This document shows positions 32,768 to 43,146 of a DNA stretch of 64,000 bases, one piece after another. A program made the translations under genes and the position numbers. The stretch lies in assembly GCA_013359235.1 (NCBI GenBank), contig JABWCE010000006.1, forward strand, positions 1 to 64,000. Reading direction: 5' to 3'. Position 1 is the first letter of the stretch. Every line of letters starts with the position of its first letter. A model generated the notes under the pieces. That model was not told where the DNA came from. It made no database searches and was given only the letters and a program-made list of their open reading frames with translations. The stretch comes from Bacteroidota bacterium. Lineage in GTDB: Bacteria > Bacteroidota > Bacteroidia > NS11-12g > UBA9320.

Positions 32768-35700
32768 CTATAATAAACTTATATTGCCTTCAATTGAATA
32801 TGAGTGGTTGTCGGCACCCATTGCTTTAATTTTGTAAATATATACACCCGACTGTGCCTTAACGCCTCTGTAATACCCATCCCATTCTTCGTCAATATTA
32901 TTGGTTTCAAATACTATTTCGCCCCATCTGTTGTAAATTCTGAAAGAGAAATTACGCCCTTTTAAATCTGTGAAATTTTCTACAAATATTGATTTTACCC
33001 CAATTTTTTCGTTTATACCATCACCATTAGGTGTAAAAGCGTTTGCAATTAACAATGTTGAAGGTGAAATAACACACGAAACATTTGAAAAACTCGTGTC
33101 CTGCAAATCTGAAGAAACTGCCATTATTCTATAACAATACGCTCCATGAATATTTTCAATGGTTTGATTGTGGTAGTATATGCTGTCTAAATTAGAACTT
33201 GTATATACTGATGAAAAATTACCATTTTTCTTTATTTGAAGGGTATAATCTTTCACACCATTTTTCCATGATTTATATGTATTCCAGTAAGCCTGGGTAA
33301 AATAGCTTGATGATGTGGTATTGATTACAATATTTTTTCCAATACCGCCTGCAATGCTTCTGTTTCCACATTTATCAGTTTCTACTATTGAATATATATA
33401 ATTCAAATTGTTTGTATTTACATCGTAATCTCTGTAATAATTTTCAAACAACTCGAAGTTTTCAATTTTGCTTGTTTCTACACAAATTCTACTTAATAAA
33501 TAATTGTTAAAATTGCTGTTTTTTGATGCTTCCCATTTTACAGATATTGAGTTATCTTCATTTACTGAAACATTTTTTATATCGGTATATTTTGGAGGAA
33601 ATTGAAAAACTGGAATACTTTGTGACAAATTGCTTCTTGAAATTAAATTGCCGTTTACAGCTTCAATGTAGTAAAAATATGTACGATTACACAATCCTGA
33701 ATCAGTATAAGTAAATTGGTTTGAATTTAAAGTTGCAATTTCTGTAAAATTAATTTCATCAGAAGTTTTTCGGTATAAAACATATTTGTCTGTATTATTC
33801 CAGCCTATATATGGAGTCCAATTTATTACAGAAACAAAAGATTTATTATTTTCAACTTTTAAGTAAATTGTACAATGTTTAGCTCCAATGCCACTTTCAT
33901 AGCCGCATATATCAGTAATTCTGTAATCAAAACAAACAGATGTATCTTTTGCAATCGGATTAGAATAAACAAATGTTTGCATTTCTTTACTTGTAGTATT
34001 ATAAACCTTCAAGCCGGTGTTTTCATTATATAAATTAGCCGATAAAAATCTTTGATATGTAATAGGTAAAGTATTTACAGAAACTGAATTATTATTGTTT
34101 ACACTAACAAAACTCAATTGGCCCGAAGGAATATCTTCGGGATTGGGAACATTTATAACTTTTGAAACAGTATTAAAACATTGGTTTTGGTCATAAACTG
34201 TAAGTTCAACAATATTAGCACCTGCATTTGAAAAAACATGATTAATAGATTTGGAGTTGTAAATTGTAGAATTGCCATAACTCTTTACTTCCCAATTGTA
34301 TTTAGTTAATAAAAAATCACTTTTTGAAGTATTATAAAAAGTAATTAGCTTTTGCTTGCAGATAGAATCAAAACTTACAAAATTGGCAACCGGGTTGGGG
34401 TTTACAAGTATTTTTACTTGCATACTATCTACACAAAAGTTAGTATTTTCAACTACTTGCGAAATGTAAAAATTTCCATTAGAGTTAAAATTTACAATTT
34501 TTTCATTAATTGGATTTCTGCTCGAATCTTTTTTATAAAAATTAGATTTTGTAACTGCAATAGCATTGTCAGTTAAGGTAATGGTTTCATCTTGACAAAT
34601 TATTGAATCGCTTACAGAAAATGTTGCCCATGAAGTTTGTTTTACAATAATTGGAGTAGGGCTTACATACTCTGCTTTGCAACCTAACGAATCAACAGCA
34701 TAAAGTATTGGAATATGTTCTTCTTTCAAATTGCTGCGATTTTCTATATTATATTTATGAATACCTATGGTTGTATCAAGCATTGAGCCATCATCATAAC
34801 TTAGGTAATGAGTAAATACATCTTCGCTTTTATCAATAAAAGTTACATTAAGTGGCTCGCAACCTATATTATTTTGCATTTCGAATTTTGGAACAGGTCC
34901 TACAACTTTTATATAATCTTTTTTAATAAGAGTATCACTACAGCCTTCGTTGCTTTTTGCAATTAACGAAACCATATATCCGTGTTTTATTCCTGTATTA
35001 TTTCTATAAATATTAGCTACAAAAGTATCGGTTGTAATAACTTTATTATTATCCCCAAAATTCCAAATTAACGAATCTGCATAGCTCGATTTTGAATTGA
35101 ACTGTGCATAAACAGGTGAACATTTCATCACTGTTTCAATTGCTTTGAAATTTGATTTCACAACTATTGATTTAATGTTTTTGTAAACAGTGTCAAAACA
35201 CATATTAAATTTTGAAGCAATAAGACCAACTCTGTTTACATTGTCAATATTGTATTTAATATTGATTGAACTGTTAAGTAAATTATCATTTGTTATTGCA
35301 TCTTTTGATAGTATCCAGTTTATTGAAGTAGGCAAAAGATATGAGCGATCGTTTAAATTAATTATTTGATTCGGGCAAACAACATCATCAGATATAGAAA
35401 AATCAGCTTTTACTCCAACATAAACAGGCTTTGAGGTGAGCCACTGTTTGCACCCGCTGCTGTTTGTTACTTCCAGATATATGTAATATTCGCCAGTTTT
35501 GTTAAATGTAATTTCCGGATTTCTGGCAGACTTATCAGAAATTGAAACATTTTCACTGTTTGAGGTTGTCCAGTTATATTTTATTTCGTTGTCGGGATTA
35601 TTGTAATGAAAATTTTCATTTATTTTTACAATAGGCTTCACCGTAAGTGGTGTGCATCCATTAAAAGTATCAAGTTTCATCTCTGCACCAATTCCATTCA

Positions 35701-37618
35701 CTTTAATCAAATCATTATTTACAATACTATCTCTACAGCCATTGTATATTTGGTGTACCATTTTAAAATCATATTCACCCGGATTATTAAGAGAAATATT
35801 TAAAGATGGAATTTCAGAATAAATTTCAGTATTATCAATTCTGTTTTTTAAATACCAAAAATAACGAAATTTTGCCCTTGAAGGCTCAGAAGTACCAATA
35901 GTAATAAGTTTTTCGTTTTTGCAAATAACCGGATTTTCAATTTTAAAATTGATTTTGGGAATAACAATTTCTATAACATTTATATTTTCTATTGAATCAA
36001 TACATCCAATGCCATTATCTGCTATCATTTTTACCGTGTAAAATCCGGTATCGTGGTATGAAAACGTAGGACTTTTTGAATTTGAAAAACCAAGTATTGA
36101 TTTTTTATCTTTATCATAAAAAGTCCATTTGAAACCATCTGTTACTTTATATGAACTTGGAGGTGTGTTTTGTGAAAAATTAATAATTTGGTCAACACAA
36201 CCAACCTTTGGTATAGCATCAAATGATGGCTTTATAGGTGTATTTCTTATAAATTTATTTTTTCTGAATGTATCAGTACATCCGTTTGAATGGCGTGTAA
36301 TAAGCATTACATCAAATTCGCCTTGTTGTTTTATTTTTATTGAGTCGTTAATTAAATTCGAAATTCTGATAACTTTTCCATTATCAAAATACATCCACTG
36401 GTAAATCATTTTACCAGGCTCATAAACCTTTGATTTATTTTTAAAATGAACCGTGTGAGGCATCATACAATGGTAATAATCATCGGAGGTAAACTCTGAT
36501 TTTACACCTTTTACTCTTAAATAATTATGTAAATTTTTTGAAATTTCACAACCATTGTAATTGTAAACCACCGTTAAATCGTATTTTCCAAGATTATCGT
36601 ATCTTGCCTTAAAAGTATAATTATCAGGATTTAATTTAACTGAAGCACCATTAGCATACCAAGTAAAAACACCAGGAACAGTTTTATCCTTATTTTCAAT
36701 TGTTACTACTCTTCCCTTACAAATTGTAGAATCAGAAAATTTTAAAGTCATTGAATCTATATGACCAAATGCAAGATAATCAATTTTATTTTTGGTGTGA
36801 GTACATCCTTTATCTGTAATTACCTGAAACGAAACAGAATATTTTCCTGAATATTTATATACAATAGTATCTGGTTCAACTACTGACTGTGACATAGGAA
36901 AACCACCGGGAGTTAACCATTTGTATGAAATTATTTTGTTATCATTACTTGTAATTATTGGACTAAAATTAACTTTTTTGCTTACACACCCCGAAGTATT
37001 ATCAGCAACAAAATCTATATTAACATTCTTATAAATAATTGCAGTAGAATCAAACTCTTTGATAGCTCTGCATCCATTATTATCTTCAACAACCATTGAT
37101 ATACGTTTTACTCCTGTGGTACTGAAATTGTGAGTTTGCTTTGCCAAAGCATTGTAATAATTTGTTCCATCAATAACCCAACTTCGTTTTACCGAATTTT
37201 TTGTTAAATCAAAATAGGTTACTGTATCAGTGCCATAACAAAGTTTTTTTCTCGAAATACTAAATTGTGGTTCAGGTTTGGGAAAAACCTCTAAAAATTC
37301 ATTTTTGAAAATATTGCAAACTTTTCCGTTAGCATATTTAATTTTAACATTTACGTTAATTTTACCTGAATTTTGAATGTAAGCATAAAAAGTATCATAT
37401 CCCTGCTGGATTCCTTTCCCTACTTCCCAATAAAATTTTGAACCTGCTGGCGCATTATTTACCACAAGTTTAAAAAGTGCTGGTTGGCAAAGACCTGTTT
37501 CTTTTGCTATAAGATTTTCATTAAAATCACATTGTGCCTTTGCAAAAAAAGTTAAATTGAATAATAACAAGCCAAGAATGGCTCTCTTTGAAAATTGTGT
37601 CGTAATCAGGTACAGCAT
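32768..37618 (-). CDS. Giant PKD/FN3 secreted protein with T9SS type B C-terminal domain
   Basis: From ATG 37618 this is 1616 aa with signal peptide MLYLITTQFSKRAILGLLLF ending FAKAQ. It is an array of about a dozen PKD/Ig-like units, recognisable by repeated 'G-C-x-P-L/V-x-V-x-F' starts (GCVSKKVNFSP, GCVDQIINFSQ, GCEPLNVTFID, KCSPVYAQFNS) and W-x-F/Y cores. FN3-like domains follow in the last third (SVINWTPYIGWNN, SVSVKWEASKNSNF-type). The end, ANAFTPNGDGINEKIGV through RIYNRWGEIVFETN and EEWDGYYRG, is a type B sorting domain. It is a predicted cell-surface T9SS product. A purine-rich GGAGAAAA stretch precedes the ATG. A longer reading frame from 37672 adds residues before the signal peptide and was not used. 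Confidence 0.87.
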   Translation of the reverse strand: MLYLITTQFSKRAILGLLLFNLTFFAKAQCDFNENLIAKETGLCQPALFKLVVNNAPAGSKFYWEVGKGIQQGYDTFYAYIQNSGKINVNVKIKYANGKVCNIFKNEFLEVFPKPEPQFSISRKKLCYGTDTVTYFDLTKNSVKRSWVIDGTNYYNALAKQTHNFSTTGVKRISMVVEDNNGCRAIKEFDSTAIIYKNVNIDFVADNTSGCVSKKVNFSPIITSNDNKIISYKWLTPGGFPMSQSVVEPDTIVYKYSGKYSVSFQVITDKGCTHTKNKIDYLAFGHIDSMTLKFSDSTICKGRVVTIENKDKTVPGVFTWYANGASVKLNPDNYTFKARYDNLGKYDLTVVYNYNGCEISKNLHNYLRVKGVKSEFTSDDYYHCMMPHTVHFKNKSKVYEPGKMIYQWMYFDNGKVIRISNLINDSIKIKQQGEFDVMLITRHSNGCTDTFRKNKFIRNTPIKPSFDAIPKVGCVDQIINFSQNTPPSSYKVTDGFKWTFYDKDKKSILGFSNSKSPTFSYHDTGFYTVKMIADNGIGCIDSIENINVIEIVIPKINFKIENPVICKNEKLITIGTSEPSRAKFRYFWYLKNRIDNTEIYSEIPSLNISLNNPGEYDFKMVHQIYNGCRDSIVNNDLIKVNGIGAEMKLDTFNGCTPLTVKPIVKINENFHYNNPDNEIKYNWTTSNSENVSISDKSARNPEITFNKTGEYYIYLEVTNSSGCKQWLTSKPVYVGVKADFSISDDVVCPNQIINLNDRSYLLPTSINWILSKDAITNDNLLNSSINIKYNIDNVNRVGLIASKFNMCFDTVYKNIKSIVVKSNFKAIETVMKCSPVYAQFNSKSSYADSLIWNFGDNNKVITTDTFVANIYRNNTGIKHGYMVSLIAKSNEGCSDTLIKKDYIKVVGPVPKFEMQNNIGCEPLNVTFIDKSEDVFTHYLSYDDGSMLDTTIGIHKYNIENRSNLKEEHIPILYAVDSLGCKAEYVSPTPIIVKQTSWATFSVSDSIICQDETITLTDNAIAVTKSNFYKKDSSRNPINEKIVNFNSNGNFYISQVVENTNFCVDSMQVKILVNPNPVANFVSFDSICKQKLITFYNTSKSDFLLTKYNWEVKSYGNSTIYNSKSINHVFSNAGANIVELTVYDQNQCFNTVSKVINVPNPEDIPSGQLSFVSVNNNNSVSVNTLPITYQRFLSANLYNENTGLKVYNTTSKEMQTFVYSNPIAKDTSVCFDYRITDICGYESGIGAKHCTIYLKVENNKSFVSVINWTPYIGWNNTDKYVLYRKTSDEINFTEIATLNSNQFTYTDSGLCNRTYFYYIEAVNGNLISRSNLSQSIPVFQFPPKYTDIKNVSVNEDNSISVKWEASKNSNFNNYLLSRICVETSKIENFELFENYYRDYDVNTNNLNYIYSIVETDKCGNRSIAGGIGKNIVINTTSSSYFTQAYWNTYKSWKNGVKDYTLQIKKNGNFSSVYTSSNLDSIYYHNQTIENIHGAYCYRIMAVSSDLQDTSFSNVSCVISPSTLLIANAFTPNGDGINEKIGVKSIFVENFTDLKGRNFSFRIYNRWGEIVFETNNIDEEWDGYYRGVKAQSGVYIYKIKAMGADNHSYSIEGNISLL

Positions 37619-38574: not shown

Positions 38575-39591
38575 TTACTCATTATCTTCATTCAAAAAAA
38601 AACGATACGAAAAACCAGTTGAAATATGAAACTGCGAGGCTATTTGTGTTTTAGTTACATATTGGTAAATCGGAATTTCTGACAGGACAAAAACTACAAC
38701 TTTTCCTTTTAAAGTGTAATTGAGTTGCGGAACTATGTATATTTTTTTACTGCCTGTAGCAAACGGGTCGTAATTTGGATAATCATAAAGTAATACATTT
38801 TCATTAATTTTCATTTTTTCAATCCTTTCATATTTTACTTGTGCAGTAATTCCCAATGTTTTATACAATGTTTTGCTTGCAAATAATCCTGCCGAGAAAT
38901 AATCACCTTGTTTTTCTCCCAACTGGTTCCATCCCTTTTTAATATATGTAACATTAGCAAATGTTTTAAATTTTTTAAATTCTTTCATAAAAAAACCGTA
39001 CAACAATATATCGTGAGATCCCGAACTTGGTTGTACTGCAAGTGGCATAGTTACATAATACTTTTCGCCCGAAAATGGTTCTGTTTTTGAAAAAGAATCA
39101 TTGTATTTTCCTAATGGAATTTTAATACCCAAACCAATAGTAGCTTCGGTTCTTAAATTTTTCTTCTTTTTATTGTAAATGTCGTATCGCGGAAAAATAA
39201 TTAAATCACCAATACCATTTGATTTTATAATTTCATTGGTTTTATTCACACTATCATACAATCCCACTTGTTTTTTATTTAAAAAATAACCAAAATCAAA
39301 TGAAATAGTAAACTTATCGCTCAATCCATATCCTATTCTATTAAAAATGTAATCACTTTCAAAATGATCTAAAAAATCTTTGGCTGGTTTTGTACCCGTT
39401 AAAAATTTTTTTGTACTTATATGCTGATAGTTAACATTTACTTCAAATTGATTTTCTTGTAATACGCCTTGCGATGCACCCCCAGCCAACGGGCTTCCAC
39501 TTCCACCAGCACAGCACTGCGAATTTGCCGTTTTTATAAACAAAATACTTGTAAAAGTAAAAACTATTGTGGCTTTGAAAATTACAGACAC
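38575..39591 (-). CDS. Outer-membrane beta-barrel protein with N-terminal Cys-Cys/Gly motif
   Basis: This 338-aa protein has a signal peptide ending ...IKTANSQ (about residue 25). It is directly followed by a striking CCAGGSGSPLAGGASQG segment (26 onward) that would lie at the mature N-terminus. The rest alternates amphipathic strands, with LRTEATIGLGIKIPLG, HDILLYGFFMKEF, IYIVPQLNYTLKGKV and a terminal HISTGFSYRFFL, like a 10-14-stranded outer-membrane barrel. Vicinal cysteines with flexible glycines suggest metal or disulfide chemistry; that is inference. It is the last gene of a three-gene operon after two thioredoxin-fold proteins, only six bases behind the second. No characterised family is recognised. 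Confidence 0.78.
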   Translation of the reverse strand: MSVIFKATIVFTFTSILFIKTANSQCCAGGSGSPLAGGASQGVLQENQFEVNVNYQHISTKKFLTGTKPAKDFLDHFESDYIFNRIGYGLSDKFTISFDFGYFLNKKQVGLYDSVNKTNEIIKSNGIGDLIIFPRYDIYNKKKKNLRTEATIGLGIKIPLGKYNDSFSKTEPFSGEKYYVTMPLAVQPSSGSHDILLYGFFMKEFKKFKTFANVTYIKKGWNQLGEKQGDYFSAGLFASKTLYKTLGITAQVKYERIEKMKINENVLLYDYPNYDPFATGSKKIYIVPQLNYTLKGKVVVFVLSEIPIYQYVTKTQIASQFHISTGFSYRFFLNEDNE

Positions 39592-39597
39592 TTTTTT

Positions 39598-40380
39598 TTA
39601 ATTATTAATAATTATTTTGAGTGTTTTATTAACTTTTTCATTGAATATTTTAAGAAAATAAACGCCATCGTTTAAATTTTCAGTACAAATTTCTAATGAA
39701 TTTTCACCTGAATTAAAATATTTGTTTTCTTCAATTTTTTGAATTTCCGAACCAACAATGTTCAAAACGCTAATATTAAGTTTTTCGGGATTTTTTAAAT
39801 TAAAATTTAAAGTAAGTTTTTCGTTTGATGGGTTGGGTAAAATTTCTGTTTTGTAAATAAAATCATCAATTTCTTTTAGGTTTAATGTAGCAGCAATGGC
39901 AGCATTCAATGAATTTTGCAGTTTAGTAATATTTGAAATATTTGAATTATTTTCATTAAAAAAAACATCATGTCCTTTCCCCGCAATTATTACAACTTTG
40001 GGCATTCCGTTTGTACCATAATCAGTCATTTTTATTGCTGAATTTGAAAATTTTATAGTATTTGGCATACCATTGTTATCTGTCCAGCTAATAATTGATG
40101 GGCAAGCTGTATTTGCATAATCATCTGCTACAAACATTACAATTTTGCCCGGATAAATTGTATCATAACTTTTCACAACATTGTAAGTTGTTTTTGATGG
40201 TCCAATACAACTGCTGCATGGCATTACCCAATCAATAACTACAACTTTTCCCGAATCGAGGTTTTTAAACAAATCATGAGTTTTTCCACTACAATCATTA
40301 CAAGTAAAATTTACAGCTTTTTGAGCATTTGCAATTGAAAAGCAAAGTAATAAAATGGTGAAAATTATATTTTTTTTCAT
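39598..40380 (-). CDS. Secreted thioredoxin-fold protein with T9SS type A sorting domain (copy 2)
   Basis: This 260-aa protein has a signal peptide (1-19) and a thioredoxin-like domain with the redox motif CSSC (Cys55, Cys58) in VVIDWVMPCSSCIGPSK. A second pair lies near the mature N-terminus (CNDC, Cys27 and Cys30), and a further Cys93 is in NTACPSIISW. A cis-Pro strand (GMPKVVII) follows. The last ~75 residues (ILPNPSNEKLTLNF, LNIVGSEIQ, DGVYFLKIF) are a type A T9SS sorting domain. It is therefore a predicted surface or secreted disulfide/redox protein. It is a close paralogue of the next gene upstream (40389-41162), from which it is separated by eight bases. Confidence 0.82.
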   Translation of the reverse strand: MKKNIIFTILLLCFSIANAQKAVNFTCNDCSGKTHDLFKNLDSGKVVVIDWVMPCSSCIGPSKTTYNVVKSYDTIYPGKIVMFVADDYANTACPSIISWTDNNGMPNTIKFSNSAIKMTDYGTNGMPKVVIIAGKGHDVFFNENNSNISNITKLQNSLNAAIAATLNLKEIDDFIYKTEILPNPSNEKLTLNFNLKNPEKLNISVLNIVGSEIQKIEENKYFNSGENSLEICTENLNDGVYFLKIFNEKVNKTLKIIINN

Positions 40381-40388
40381 ATAAAATC

Positions 40389-41162
40389 TTAATTATTAAT
40401 GTTTAATTTTAAAGTTATAAAAGTTTTATTGTTAAATATATTCAGAAAATAAATACCATTGTTAAATTCATCAGTATTCAAATCAATTTTTGACTTATTT
40501 TCATGTATTTTCAATGTTTTTTCGGCAATGTTTTTGCCTGAAATATCAGTAATTTTTATTATAAAAGTTTCAGGTTTTAAGATATTAAAATTTAGATAAT
40601 GCTTTTTTTCTACGAAGTTTTCTGTTAAAAATATTTGCTTATTTTGTTTTTCAAATCTTTTTATTGATGCCTTACCCGAAAGTGCATCATTAAATGCATT
40701 TTTAAGTTTTTGAATATTCCCGGCTTCAAAATCTACTTCGTTAAAATATACATAATGTGATTTGTTCCCAATAATTACAACTTTGGGCATTCCTGGCAAA
40801 CCATAATCTTCCATAATTATTGATGTATCAGAGAATTTTTTAGTTTTTATCATCCCGTAATTATTTGTCCAACTTACTATTGATTGGCAATCGGTATCAG
40901 CCCTGTCATCGCAAACGTACATTCTTATTTTATCAGGAAAAGAATCAGAATAACTTTGAATAATGTTGTAAACAGTTTTTGAGGGGTCTATACATGAGCC
41001 ACAAGGCATTACCCAATCTAATACAATTATATAACCCGAATCGAGTTCGTTAAATAAATTGTGCTTATTTCCATCACAATCATTACATACAAAATTGGTT
41101 GCAAACTGTGAAAAAGAAAAATTGCACATAAAAACAAAAGCAAACAGAATATATTTTCTCAT
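40389..41162 (-). CDS. Secreted thioredoxin-fold protein with T9SS type A sorting domain (copy 1)
   Basis: This 257-aa protein has the same build as its downstream neighbour. A signal peptide (1-18) is followed by CNDC (Cys26, Cys29), the active-site-like CGSC (Cys54, Cys57) in IVLDWVMPCGSCIDPSK, extra cysteines at 84 and 92, and a GMPKVVII cis-Pro strand. The T9SS tail ends with NGIYLFNIF-like strands (actual: FNNGIYFLNIFNN). With its paralogue it forms a tandem pair that clearly arose by duplication and then diverged. The CxxC replaces the CPxC/CGPC of ordinary thioredoxin or TlpA. A -7 box lies upstream. Role unknown; surface thiol chemistry or metal handling is a guess. Confidence 0.82.
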   Translation of the reverse strand: MRKYILFAFVFMCNFSFSQFATNFVCNDCDGNKHNLFNELDSGYIIVLDWVMPCGSCIDPSKTVYNIIQSYSDSFPDKIRMYVCDDRADTDCQSIVSWTNNYGMIKTKKFSDTSIIMEDYGLPGMPKVVIIGNKSHYVYFNEVDFEAGNIQKLKNAFNDALSGKASIKRFEKQNKQIFLTENFVEKKHYLNFNILKPETFIIKITDISGKNIAEKTLKIHENKSKIDLNTDEFNNGIYFLNIFNNKTFITLKLNINN

Positions 41163-41175
41163 TTAAAATATTCTC

Positions 41176-41184
41176 ACAAATTTA
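41176..41184 (-). promoter_or_regulatory. -7 promoter box of the redox operon
   Basis: On the minus strand TAAATTTGT is an exact TAnnTTTGY match, 13 bases before ATG 41162. It would drive both thioredoxin-fold genes and the barrel gene. Confidence 0.55.
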
Positions 41185-41257: not shown

Positions 41258-42304
41258 ATGAAATATCCAAAAAAGGTAACAATAGGCGATATTACTGTGA
41301 GAGACGGATTTCAGCACGAAGAAAATTATATACCTGCCGAAGCAAAACTATGGCTAAGCGAACAACTTATACTTGCAGGTTTTAAACATATAGAAGTTAC
41401 AAATTTGGGTAATCCTGTGGGAATGCCTCAATTTAAAGATGCTGATATTTTAATGAAAAATCTCAGAATAAGTAAACTCATCGAACATTTGATAAATGAA
41501 GTGTCTATTACAGCGGTAACTATTAGAGAAAAAGCCATAGAAAGAGCAATAGAAAACAAAAAAGAAGGTTTTGGTCCTGATAGAATTTTGTTGATGGTTT
41601 CAACTAGCGAATCACATCATTACAAAAATTCAGGTTTAAATATTGACGATTATTGGAAAATGGCTGAAAAATATATAAAACTTGCACATAATGCAGGTAT
41701 AAAAGTAAACGGAACTGTAAGTACAATTTGGGGATGCCCAATTGAAGGACCTACTGAAATGACAAAAGCAGTAGATTTTGCTCAAAGATGGTTTGATATA
41801 GGAGCAGACGATGTTGAACATGCCGACCATGATGGCTCTGCTTCGCCAGACAGAATTTATAAGTATTTTTCAATGCTATTAGATAAATTTCAAAATCCTA
41901 AAAAACACATTGTACATCTGCATACAACACGTGGTTGGGGCTTGGCAAATGTACTATCTGCTTTGCAAGCCGGTATGACTAATTTCGAAGCTACAATGGG
42001 TGGAATTGGTGGGCAACCAGCTAATTTTGTTAGCGGTGTACCTGTAAAAGGAACAGGAAAATACTATTACAGCGACCCAAGCATTACAGGTTTGGTTTGT
42101 ACTGAGGATTTGGTTGTAATGCTTGACGAAATGGGAATTGAAACGAATCTGGATATTGATAAAATTCTTGAAATTGGTTCGATGACAGAGCGTATTGTAG
42201 GAAGACGTTTGCGTTCGGAATGTATAAAAACAGGAAGAATTCCCAAAAACCTTAAAAATCCTATAGAAAAAATAGAAATACCGAGCAGACCTAAAATTAT
42301 CTAA
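41258..42304 (+). CDS. HMGL-like (pyruvate carboxyltransferase superfamily) protein
   Basis: This 348-aa TIM-barrel protein belongs to the DRE-TIM/HMGL-like superfamily. Its N-terminal signature is GDITVRDGFQHEE with the paired Arg15 and Asp16, and the metal-binding HLH is at His220/His222 in HIVHLHTTRGWG. A Gly-rich MGGIGGQP loop follows. Superfamily members include HMG-CoA lyase, isopropylmalate, homocitrate and citramalate synthases; the 'GGIGGQP' loop differs from the canonical 'GGCPYAPG' lyase loop. The substrate is not identified. The 3' end shares CTAA with the convergent HMG-CoA lyase gene. A related enzyme being encoded opposite may reflect a shared pathway or ancient duplication. 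Confidence 0.8.
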   Translation: MKYPKKVTIGDITVRDGFQHEENYIPAEAKLWLSEQLILAGFKHIEVTNLGNPVGMPQFKDADILMKNLRISKLIEHLINEVSITAVTIREKAIERAIENKKEGFGPDRILLMVSTSESHHYKNSGLNIDDYWKMAEKYIKLAHNAGIKVNGTVSTIWGCPIEGPTEMTKAVDFAQRWFDIGADDVEHADHDGSASPDRIYKYFSMLLDKFQNPKKHIVHLHTTRGWGLANVLSALQAGMTNFEATMGGIGGQPANFVSGVPVKGTGKYYYSDPSITGLVCTEDLVVMLDEMGIETNLDIDKILEIGSMTERIVGRRLRSECIKTGRIPKNLKNPIEKIEIPSRPKII

Positions 42305-43146
42305 TTAAAAATTTCATTTGCCATTTTTATAGAATCATTAAGTTTACTAATGTTTAAACCGGTTTTTATTCCTTTTTTTTCTATAAAATCAACCATAAGT
42401 TCAGTAGGCATATTTCCAACAAGATTATCAGATGCCATAGGACAACCTCCAAAACCTTTCAAAGCCCCGTCAAATCTGAGACACCCGCTATCTATTGCCG
42501 CTTGTAATTTTTCCTGCCAATTGTAATCGTGTGAATGAAAATGGCATCCAAAATTTAATTTAGGAAATTCTTCTCTTATAGTTTTTATAACTGTACTAAT
42601 TGTTGCAGGGTTTGACATGCCTGCTGTATCTGATAATGAAAAATAATTTGCTCCTTCATCTTGCAATTTTTTTATCCATTGTAATACAATATCTTCATTC
42701 CACAAATCGCCATAAGGATTTCCAAAACACATTGAAATATAGGCTATAAATTTTTTATTTTTCATTGCACATCGGTTAATAATATTTCTTACAGTACCAA
42801 GCGAATCTCTCATCGTTGAATTAGTGTTTTTTAATTGAAAAGTTTCAGAAACCGAAAATGGAAAACCCAAATATGTTACATTTTCAAATTCTGAGGCATC
42901 AATTGCACCACGCATATTTGCAACTATAACCGATAATTTTGTACTGCTGTGATTTAGTTTTTTGAGTACCAAAGCTGTATCAGCCATCTGAGGAATTAAT
43001 TTTGGGCTAACAAAACTGCCACAATCAAGCGTATCAAAGCCAACCTCTAACAAAGAATTAAGATATTTTATTTTTTTTGAAGTATCAATAAAATGTTTCA
43101 AACCCTGCATTGCATCCCTCGGACACTCAATAATTTTAACTTCCAT
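42301..43146 (-). CDS. Hydroxymethylglutaryl-CoA lyase
   Basis: This 281-aa protein has the HMG-CoA lyase build. The N-terminal ECPRDAMQ (7-14, catalytic Arg10 and Asp11) replaces the usual DVGPRDGLQ. The metal-binding HFHSH lies at 202-206, and the flexible catalytic loop GFGGCPMASDNLVGNMPTE contains the reactive Cys235. It should split HMG-CoA into acetoacetate and acetyl-CoA, as in leucine breakdown, in the cytoplasm. The other genes of leucine degradation are not in this window. Length is slightly short but normal. Its stop TAG overlaps the TAA stop of the convergent HMGL-like gene. Confidence 0.87.
   Translation of the reverse strand: MEVKIIECPRDAMQGLKHFIDTSKKIKYLNSLLEVGFDTLDCGSFVSPKLIPQMADTALVLKKLNHSSTKLSVIVANMRGAIDASEFENVTYLGFPFSVSETFQLKNTNSTMRDSLGTVRNIINRCAMKNKKFIAYISMCFGNPYGDLWNEDIVLQWIKKLQDEGANYFSLSDTAGMSNPATISTVIKTIREEFPKLNFGCHFHSHDYNWQEKLQAAIDSGCLRFDGALKGFGGCPMASDNLVGNMPTELMVDFIEKKGIKTGLNISKLNDSIKMANEIFN

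Follow-up and report, generated by a model that had tools for sequence, protein, structure and literature searches.

What do three tightly packed genes of a Bacteroidota bacterium, two encoding thioredoxin-like proteins with a secretion tail and one a predicted outer-membrane beta-barrel, do at the cell surface? The genes lie on the minus strand of the window, the whole stretch of 64,000 nucleotides analysed here (assembly GCA_013359235.1, contig JABWCE010000006.1, positions 1 to 64,000). A preliminary description had proposed a tight three-gene cluster behind an exact -7 box. The open reading frames bear out the cluster: the genes stand head to tail, with 8 bases between TrxA and TrxB and 6 bases between TrxB and the barrel gene, whose start codon is a GTG at 39591. 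The features are as follows.

41177-41184, minus strand: TAAATTTG, a possible Bacteroidota -7 promoter element (exact match to TAnnTTTG).
40389..41162, minus strand: TrxA, a thioredoxin-fold (TlpA/ResA-like) protein of 257 aa with MPCGSC and a type IX secretion system (T9SS) type A tail (open reading frame; PF18962; thioredoxin profile match).
39598..40380, minus strand: TrxB, a TrxA paralogue of 260 aa with MPCSSC and a T9SS type A tail (open reading frame; PF18962; identity to TrxA).
38575..39591, minus strand: predicted outer-membrane beta-barrel of 338 aa, GTG start, predicted mature start Gln-Cys-Cys-Ala-Gly-Gly (open reading frame; 12 predicted strands; Cys-Cys invariant in relatives).
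39484..39519, minus strand: QCCAGGSGSPLA, the codons for the predicted mature barrel start, with Cys-Cys and a Gly-rich segment ahead of strand 1 (sequence; invariant Q25 C26 C27).

The box is exact as described, but the window contains 115 copies of the pattern TANNTTTG where shuffles predict 132, so it is no commoner there than chance. TAAATTTG alone is therefore weak evidence for a promoter and was dropped from the argument; inspection by eye showed no -33 element. Elsewhere in the window, two HMG-CoA-lyase-like genes (function judged by eye) occupy 41258-42304 and 42301-43146 on opposite strands with overlapping ends. A large secreted Cys-containing protein, whose C-terminus resembles the gliding-motility/T9SS type B kind (by eye), is encoded at 32768-37618, two genes from the operon, and also stands beside the operon in L001/G396.

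Both thioredoxin-like proteins possess a signal peptide, as judged by eye, together with CNDC and MPC(S/G)SC. As the preliminary description had read them, they carry, on the strength of profile matches, a T9SS type A sorting signal, from which a surface location is predicted: PF18962 matched TrxB with E 3.2e-12 and TrxA with 2e-7 (47 and 31.6 bits against a curated cut-off of 27), TIGR04183 scored above cut-off in both, and PF18962 was matched by 21 of 22 thioredoxin-family members. When the sorting tail was included in the query, the thioredoxin search drew in many unrelated T9SS tails, and only full-length matches were therefore used. Alignment of the 22 thioredoxin-family proteins revealed an invariant CxxC (C55, C58) and an invariant cis-Pro loop (G125-M126-P127), with C30 and C93 each more than 90% conserved. 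The CxxxC of SCO copper chaperones was not found, the invariant columns of the alignment being CxxC. A search of PDB sequences with the family profile gave DsbE-like 3gl3 as the best match (E 1.4e-5), followed by 2l5o (6.9e-5), with the thioredoxin region covered, and also matched ResA 4nmu. The proposed thioredoxin fold is thus upheld, and by their sequences TrxA and TrxB belong to the TlpA/ResA-like group. Modelling of the N-terminal domain of the thioredoxin-like protein reached a pLDDT of only about 50, and the best Foldseek rows concerned the sorting domain rather than the thioredoxin part; this structure prediction was set aside for its low confidence.

Behind a signal peptide (by eye), the barrel starts ...ANSQCCAGGSGSPLAGG. 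Q25, C26 and C27 are invariant across the six barrels aligned, as expected from the earlier emphasis on vicinal cysteines at the predicted mature start, and the mature window barrel contains no other Cys. The Gln-Cys-Cys start, with the cleavage site placed by eye, accords with the rule that signal peptidase I of Bacteroidetes exposes a Gln (PMC5837995). Cysteine conservation as first proposed was otherwise mixed: the Cys-Cys and CxxC pairs stood, but the CNDC pair did not, since its first Cys is kept in 10/13 barrel-linked members and missing in 3/13, and only the second is conserved. An AlphaFold model of the barrel has 12 strands at a mean pLDDT of 52; like that of the thioredoxin-like protein, it was built from only five to seven sequences and is weak. 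Its closest folds were near tied at this pLDDT (NalP, Z 9.5; FapF, Z 9.2; the COG4313 channel 4rl8, Z 9.1), and PF13557 reached 14.9 bits against a gathering cut-off of 22 (E 0.029). We therefore treat COG4313 as a structural analogy and not as the family of this protein. The barrel profile matched nothing among PDB sequences up to E 1, and tblastn of the barrel against plasmids gave no match.

To what extent do the genes belong together? A T9SS-tailed thioredoxin gene lies directly upstream of the barrel in all 11 close-barrel loci, a count that includes the window and treats L001 and G396, which are one contig, as a single locus. Searching genome contigs with TrxB recovered four loci, in all of which the barrel gene directly follows, and searching the phylum and the order with the barrel profile gave strong matches in G168, G396, G397, G399, G400, G405 and G456, all paired, so the pairing was recovered from both the thioredoxin and the barrel side. 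The paired barrels span families, with identity to the window barrel down to 39%. Homologues scattered without synteny did not appear, and synteny together with cysteine conservation in distant relatives places the arrangement well beyond chance: the thioredoxin-barrel pair is a real conserved module, as the preliminary description had anticipated for one system. In most relatives a single thioredoxin gene fills this position. TrxA and TrxB are diverged paralogues, as first described (44% identity in a pairwise comparison), but the duplication does not extend beyond the genus of the window: no genome other than the window's own and G396 had tandem thioredoxins, and the tree unites the TrxA/TrxB-type tandem copies with modest support (81/78), which fits duplication within the genus. 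Another genome from the same genus has only a thioredoxin gene remnant with three stops, and no barrel (L149, G398:C6:60457-60774); the genes on either side are those that enclose the operon in G397, which indicates an apparent loss.

The neighbourhoods of the close relatives point towards metals. Barrels of L002, L003, L004 and G456 (4/11 loci) end in a CPM(H/K)...CxxCGM motif, and the Pfam family HMBD scored over cut-off in both barrels tested (L003, E 2.5e-11; G456, E 2.2e-5). In G405, a gene for a secreted HMA-domain protein precedes the thioredoxin gene by 17 bases, and a CusA/CusB pair stands immediately downstream of the barrel gene, convergent with it, in G456. In G399 and G400, CusA is found within about 5 kb with an HYC_CC_PP-type gene beside it, the family being confirmed in G400. 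Across the order, a CusA-like gene occurred within 6 kb of 5/13 thioredoxin loci against 0.19 expected. This count was made on hand-merged loci; a single genome accounts for three of the five and a single genus for two, and the gene at G456:C4 falls short of the family cut-off, so the probability calculated for the count is too small. CusA is a frequent gene in this set, being present in 57/108 genomes. A sister thioredoxin clade with 100/100 support adjoins T9SS-tailed multicopper oxidases (CueO-like) and HYC_CC_PP. This combination of thioredoxin and T9SS-tailed multicopper oxidase was present at seven loci (six by Pfam, one by NCBIfam), including L146, which is exceptional in having the oxidase neighbour but a tree position in the barrel-linked clade; HYC_CC_PP was found at several of the seven. 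The clusters of T9SS-tailed thioredoxin-like and multicopper oxidase genes at L143, L144, L145, L147, L148, L146 and L100, mostly with HYC_CC_PP and sometimes with CusA nearby, possibly represent a separate surface copper oxidation system.

Nearly all of the weaker matches to the barrel profile likewise have Cys at the predicted mature start and a body almost free of it (72 Cys in 22,351 residues, 0.3%). At least two Cys fall within one eight-residue stretch near the start in 54/73 of these barrels, a count in which a few lie inside the signal peptide; the GCVAIR group has one Cys. The partners of these distant Cys-barrels are thioredoxin-like lipoproteins, PKD-like lipoproteins with CC, DUF3179 proteins and MbnH/MbnP. 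Some are found in mer loci (G519, G582 and G534, with MerA/MerT-like genes) and one in an ars locus (G628, with ArsC/ArsM). At L155, L157 and L160/L173, a CC-barrel stands among mercury-resistance genes (MerA, MerT-like; part of L157 is masked), accompanied at L155 and L160 by a PKD-like lipoprotein bearing CC. At L153:5568-8214, a CGC-barrel and a CxxC lipoprotein are part of an arsenic group (ArsC-like, arsenite methyltransferase). Nine loci (L084, L086, L087, L089, L092, L093, L094, L159 and L161) combine a Cys-barrel with a DUF3179-like gene, assigned by Pfam at L084 only. At L095 and L096, a barrel with a CDACGCSASGG start adjoins an MbnH-like di-heme gene and an MbnP-like one, the families having been tested at L095 alone. 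Selenoprotein families with UxxC/T include DUF3179 (PMC9312934); according to a review, resistance to mercury or arsenic involves most selenoproteins of a metal/substrate transport group (PMC13188914), to which DUF3179 may belong. The mercury link is sporadic, because only G534 among 30 MerTP loci shows a Cys-barrel within about 1.5 kb on each side, the G519 and G582 mer loci having come from the barrel-side search; a role for the Cys-barrel as a general component of mer operons was ruled out for the loci shown (1/30). We raise tentatively, as a doubtful but possible reading, that these proteins are outer-membrane channels plugged by an N-terminal thiolate segment (QCC, QCxC, QxCC, CDACGC) and make up a wide superfamily, so far undescribed, among Bacteroidota and their relatives. 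Every clade would then have a particular Cys-bearing partner (surface redoxin, thioredoxin-like lipoprotein, PKD-like lipoprotein, DUF3179 or MbnH), and the clades would serve different soft metals (Cu, Hg, As). If so, the superfamily would fill a gap in metal resistance systems at the outer membrane.

Since the relatives recur beside copper, mercury or arsenic genes, we favour metal handling, and at a probability of about one half we regard the operon as an undescribed outer-membrane handling module for a thiophilic metal, most likely copper, a reading drawn from the gene neighbourhoods of its relatives. Where the preliminary description had left a choice between an extracytoplasmic relay and metal handling, that context argues for the metal half over a pure redox relay. 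In Pput2725 (COG4313), the first 14 or so residues, ahead of strand 1, act as a plug that closes the lumen on its periplasmic side (PMC4493636); by analogy, the short N-terminal segment of the barrel would fold into the lumen from that side, and the Cys-Cys pair would sit there, its vicinal thiols acting as a metal-binding gate. Metal would probably exit through the barrel, entry being less likely. The surface redoxin would keep the thiols of the barrel or of other surface proteins reduced; alternatively, its CxxC could take Cu(I), making it a surface copper chaperone or reductase, and the replacement of the barrel by a T9SS-tailed CueO-like multicopper oxidase in the sister loci fits a Cu(I)/Cu(II) role at the surface. 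The direction of transport, the identity of the metal and contact between redoxin and barrel are all inferred. The thiols of redoxin and barrel may be out of each other's reach, as the T9SS tail indicates the surface and the barrel N-terminus is thought to be periplasmic. Against a metal role count the operon of the window itself, which has no metal gene beside it (by eye; none was found in the sister genome either), its barrel, in which a Pfam scan found no HMBD (PF19335), the frequency of CusA in these genomes, the incomplete independence of the loci, the rarity of Cys-barrels beside MerTP, and the poor barrel model, whose fold matches are split evenly between COG4313 and autotransporters.

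The invariant CxxC and cis-Pro, the DsbE/ResA-like profile matches and the invariant Cys-Cys of the partner barrel would also suit a metal-free surface disulfide relay, in which the redoxin would act on disulfides of surface proteins, the barrel among them, by reduction or isomerisation, with the barrel Cys-Cys as its redox substrate. Thioredoxin-like genes adjoin more distant Cys-barrels too, and HBP35 is a precedent for an active T9SS-exported thioredoxin (PMC2907840). We nevertheless consider such a relay unlikely, given that the relatives have HMBD, HMA, CusAB, HYC_CC_PP and multicopper oxidases as neighbours, and given the pairing of other Cys-barrels with non-thioredoxin partners (DUF3179, PKD-like lipoproteins). 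Acquisition of copper or another metal, with the barrel importing the metal or a complex and the redoxin freeing it reductively from a ligand outside the cell, would agree with the treatment of COG4313 proteins as uptake channels (PMC4493636) and with the distant CDACGC barrels that adjoin MbnP/MbnH, proteins tied to copper-binding methanobactins (PMC3621798); however, the nearest metal genes of the close family belong to efflux and detoxification (CusA/CusB, CueO-like oxidases), which makes import distinctly unlikely. It is highly improbable that the barrel is an ordinary COG4313/MetA-type channel for hydrophobic molecules with a mere structural disulfide. The weak PF13557 match, the 12 modelled strands and the structural match to 4rl8 speak for such a channel, but the PF13557 score is under its cut-off, the invariant Cys opens the mature chain of an otherwise Cys-poor barrel, and the metal context recurs in relatives. 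Outer-membrane steps in the handling of copper and other soft metals are poorly understood; if the thiophilic-metal module is real, the redoxin and the Cys-Cys-tipped barrel would constitute the Bacteroidota's own outer-membrane metal route, and the Cys-Cys pair with which this small barrel opens would offer a simple, testable gate.

In the open-licence literature searched, we found no described T9SS thioredoxin/copper system and none with the same layout, in line with the preliminary description, which knew of no characterised counterpart. The thioredoxin fold, CxxC and cis-Pro loop of TrxA and TrxB are shared with TlpA/ResA/DsbE-like oxidoreductases, which are periplasmic or membrane-bound; TrxA and TrxB differ from these in the T9SS tail, the MPCxxC motif and two further conserved Cys. 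A T9SS-exported surface thioredoxin is by itself not new: HBP35 of Porphyromonas gingivalis carries a T9SS C-terminal domain, is located on the cell surface and shows thioredoxin activity, for which CxxC is needed (PMC2907840). Combining the same two elements as TrxA and TrxB, it is the nearest precedent for the exported thioredoxin, but HBP35 binds hemin, and our profile matched the HBP35-related 5y1a weakly and at profile residues 209-257, the sorting domain, only (E 0.071). PcoA/PcoB is the nearest functional analogue, combining a barrel that has a metal-binding N-terminal segment with a secreted redox protein in one operon. PcoB is a 12-strand outer-membrane barrel with a long, disordered, His/Met-rich metal-binding N-terminus, well studied and with its mechanism still open (PMC12509749). 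The Pco partner is a multicopper oxidase, whereas the operon here has a thioredoxin-like one, and the N-terminus of the window barrel is short and Cys/Gly-rich, with no CopB/PcoB match up to E 1 in the Pfam scan. COG4313/Phenol_MetA_deg channels resemble the barrel model in their 12 strands and in the N-terminal segment before strand 1; the barrel described here is set apart from them by its score under the Pfam cut-off, its N-terminal Cys-Cys and the metal-linked gene context of its relatives.
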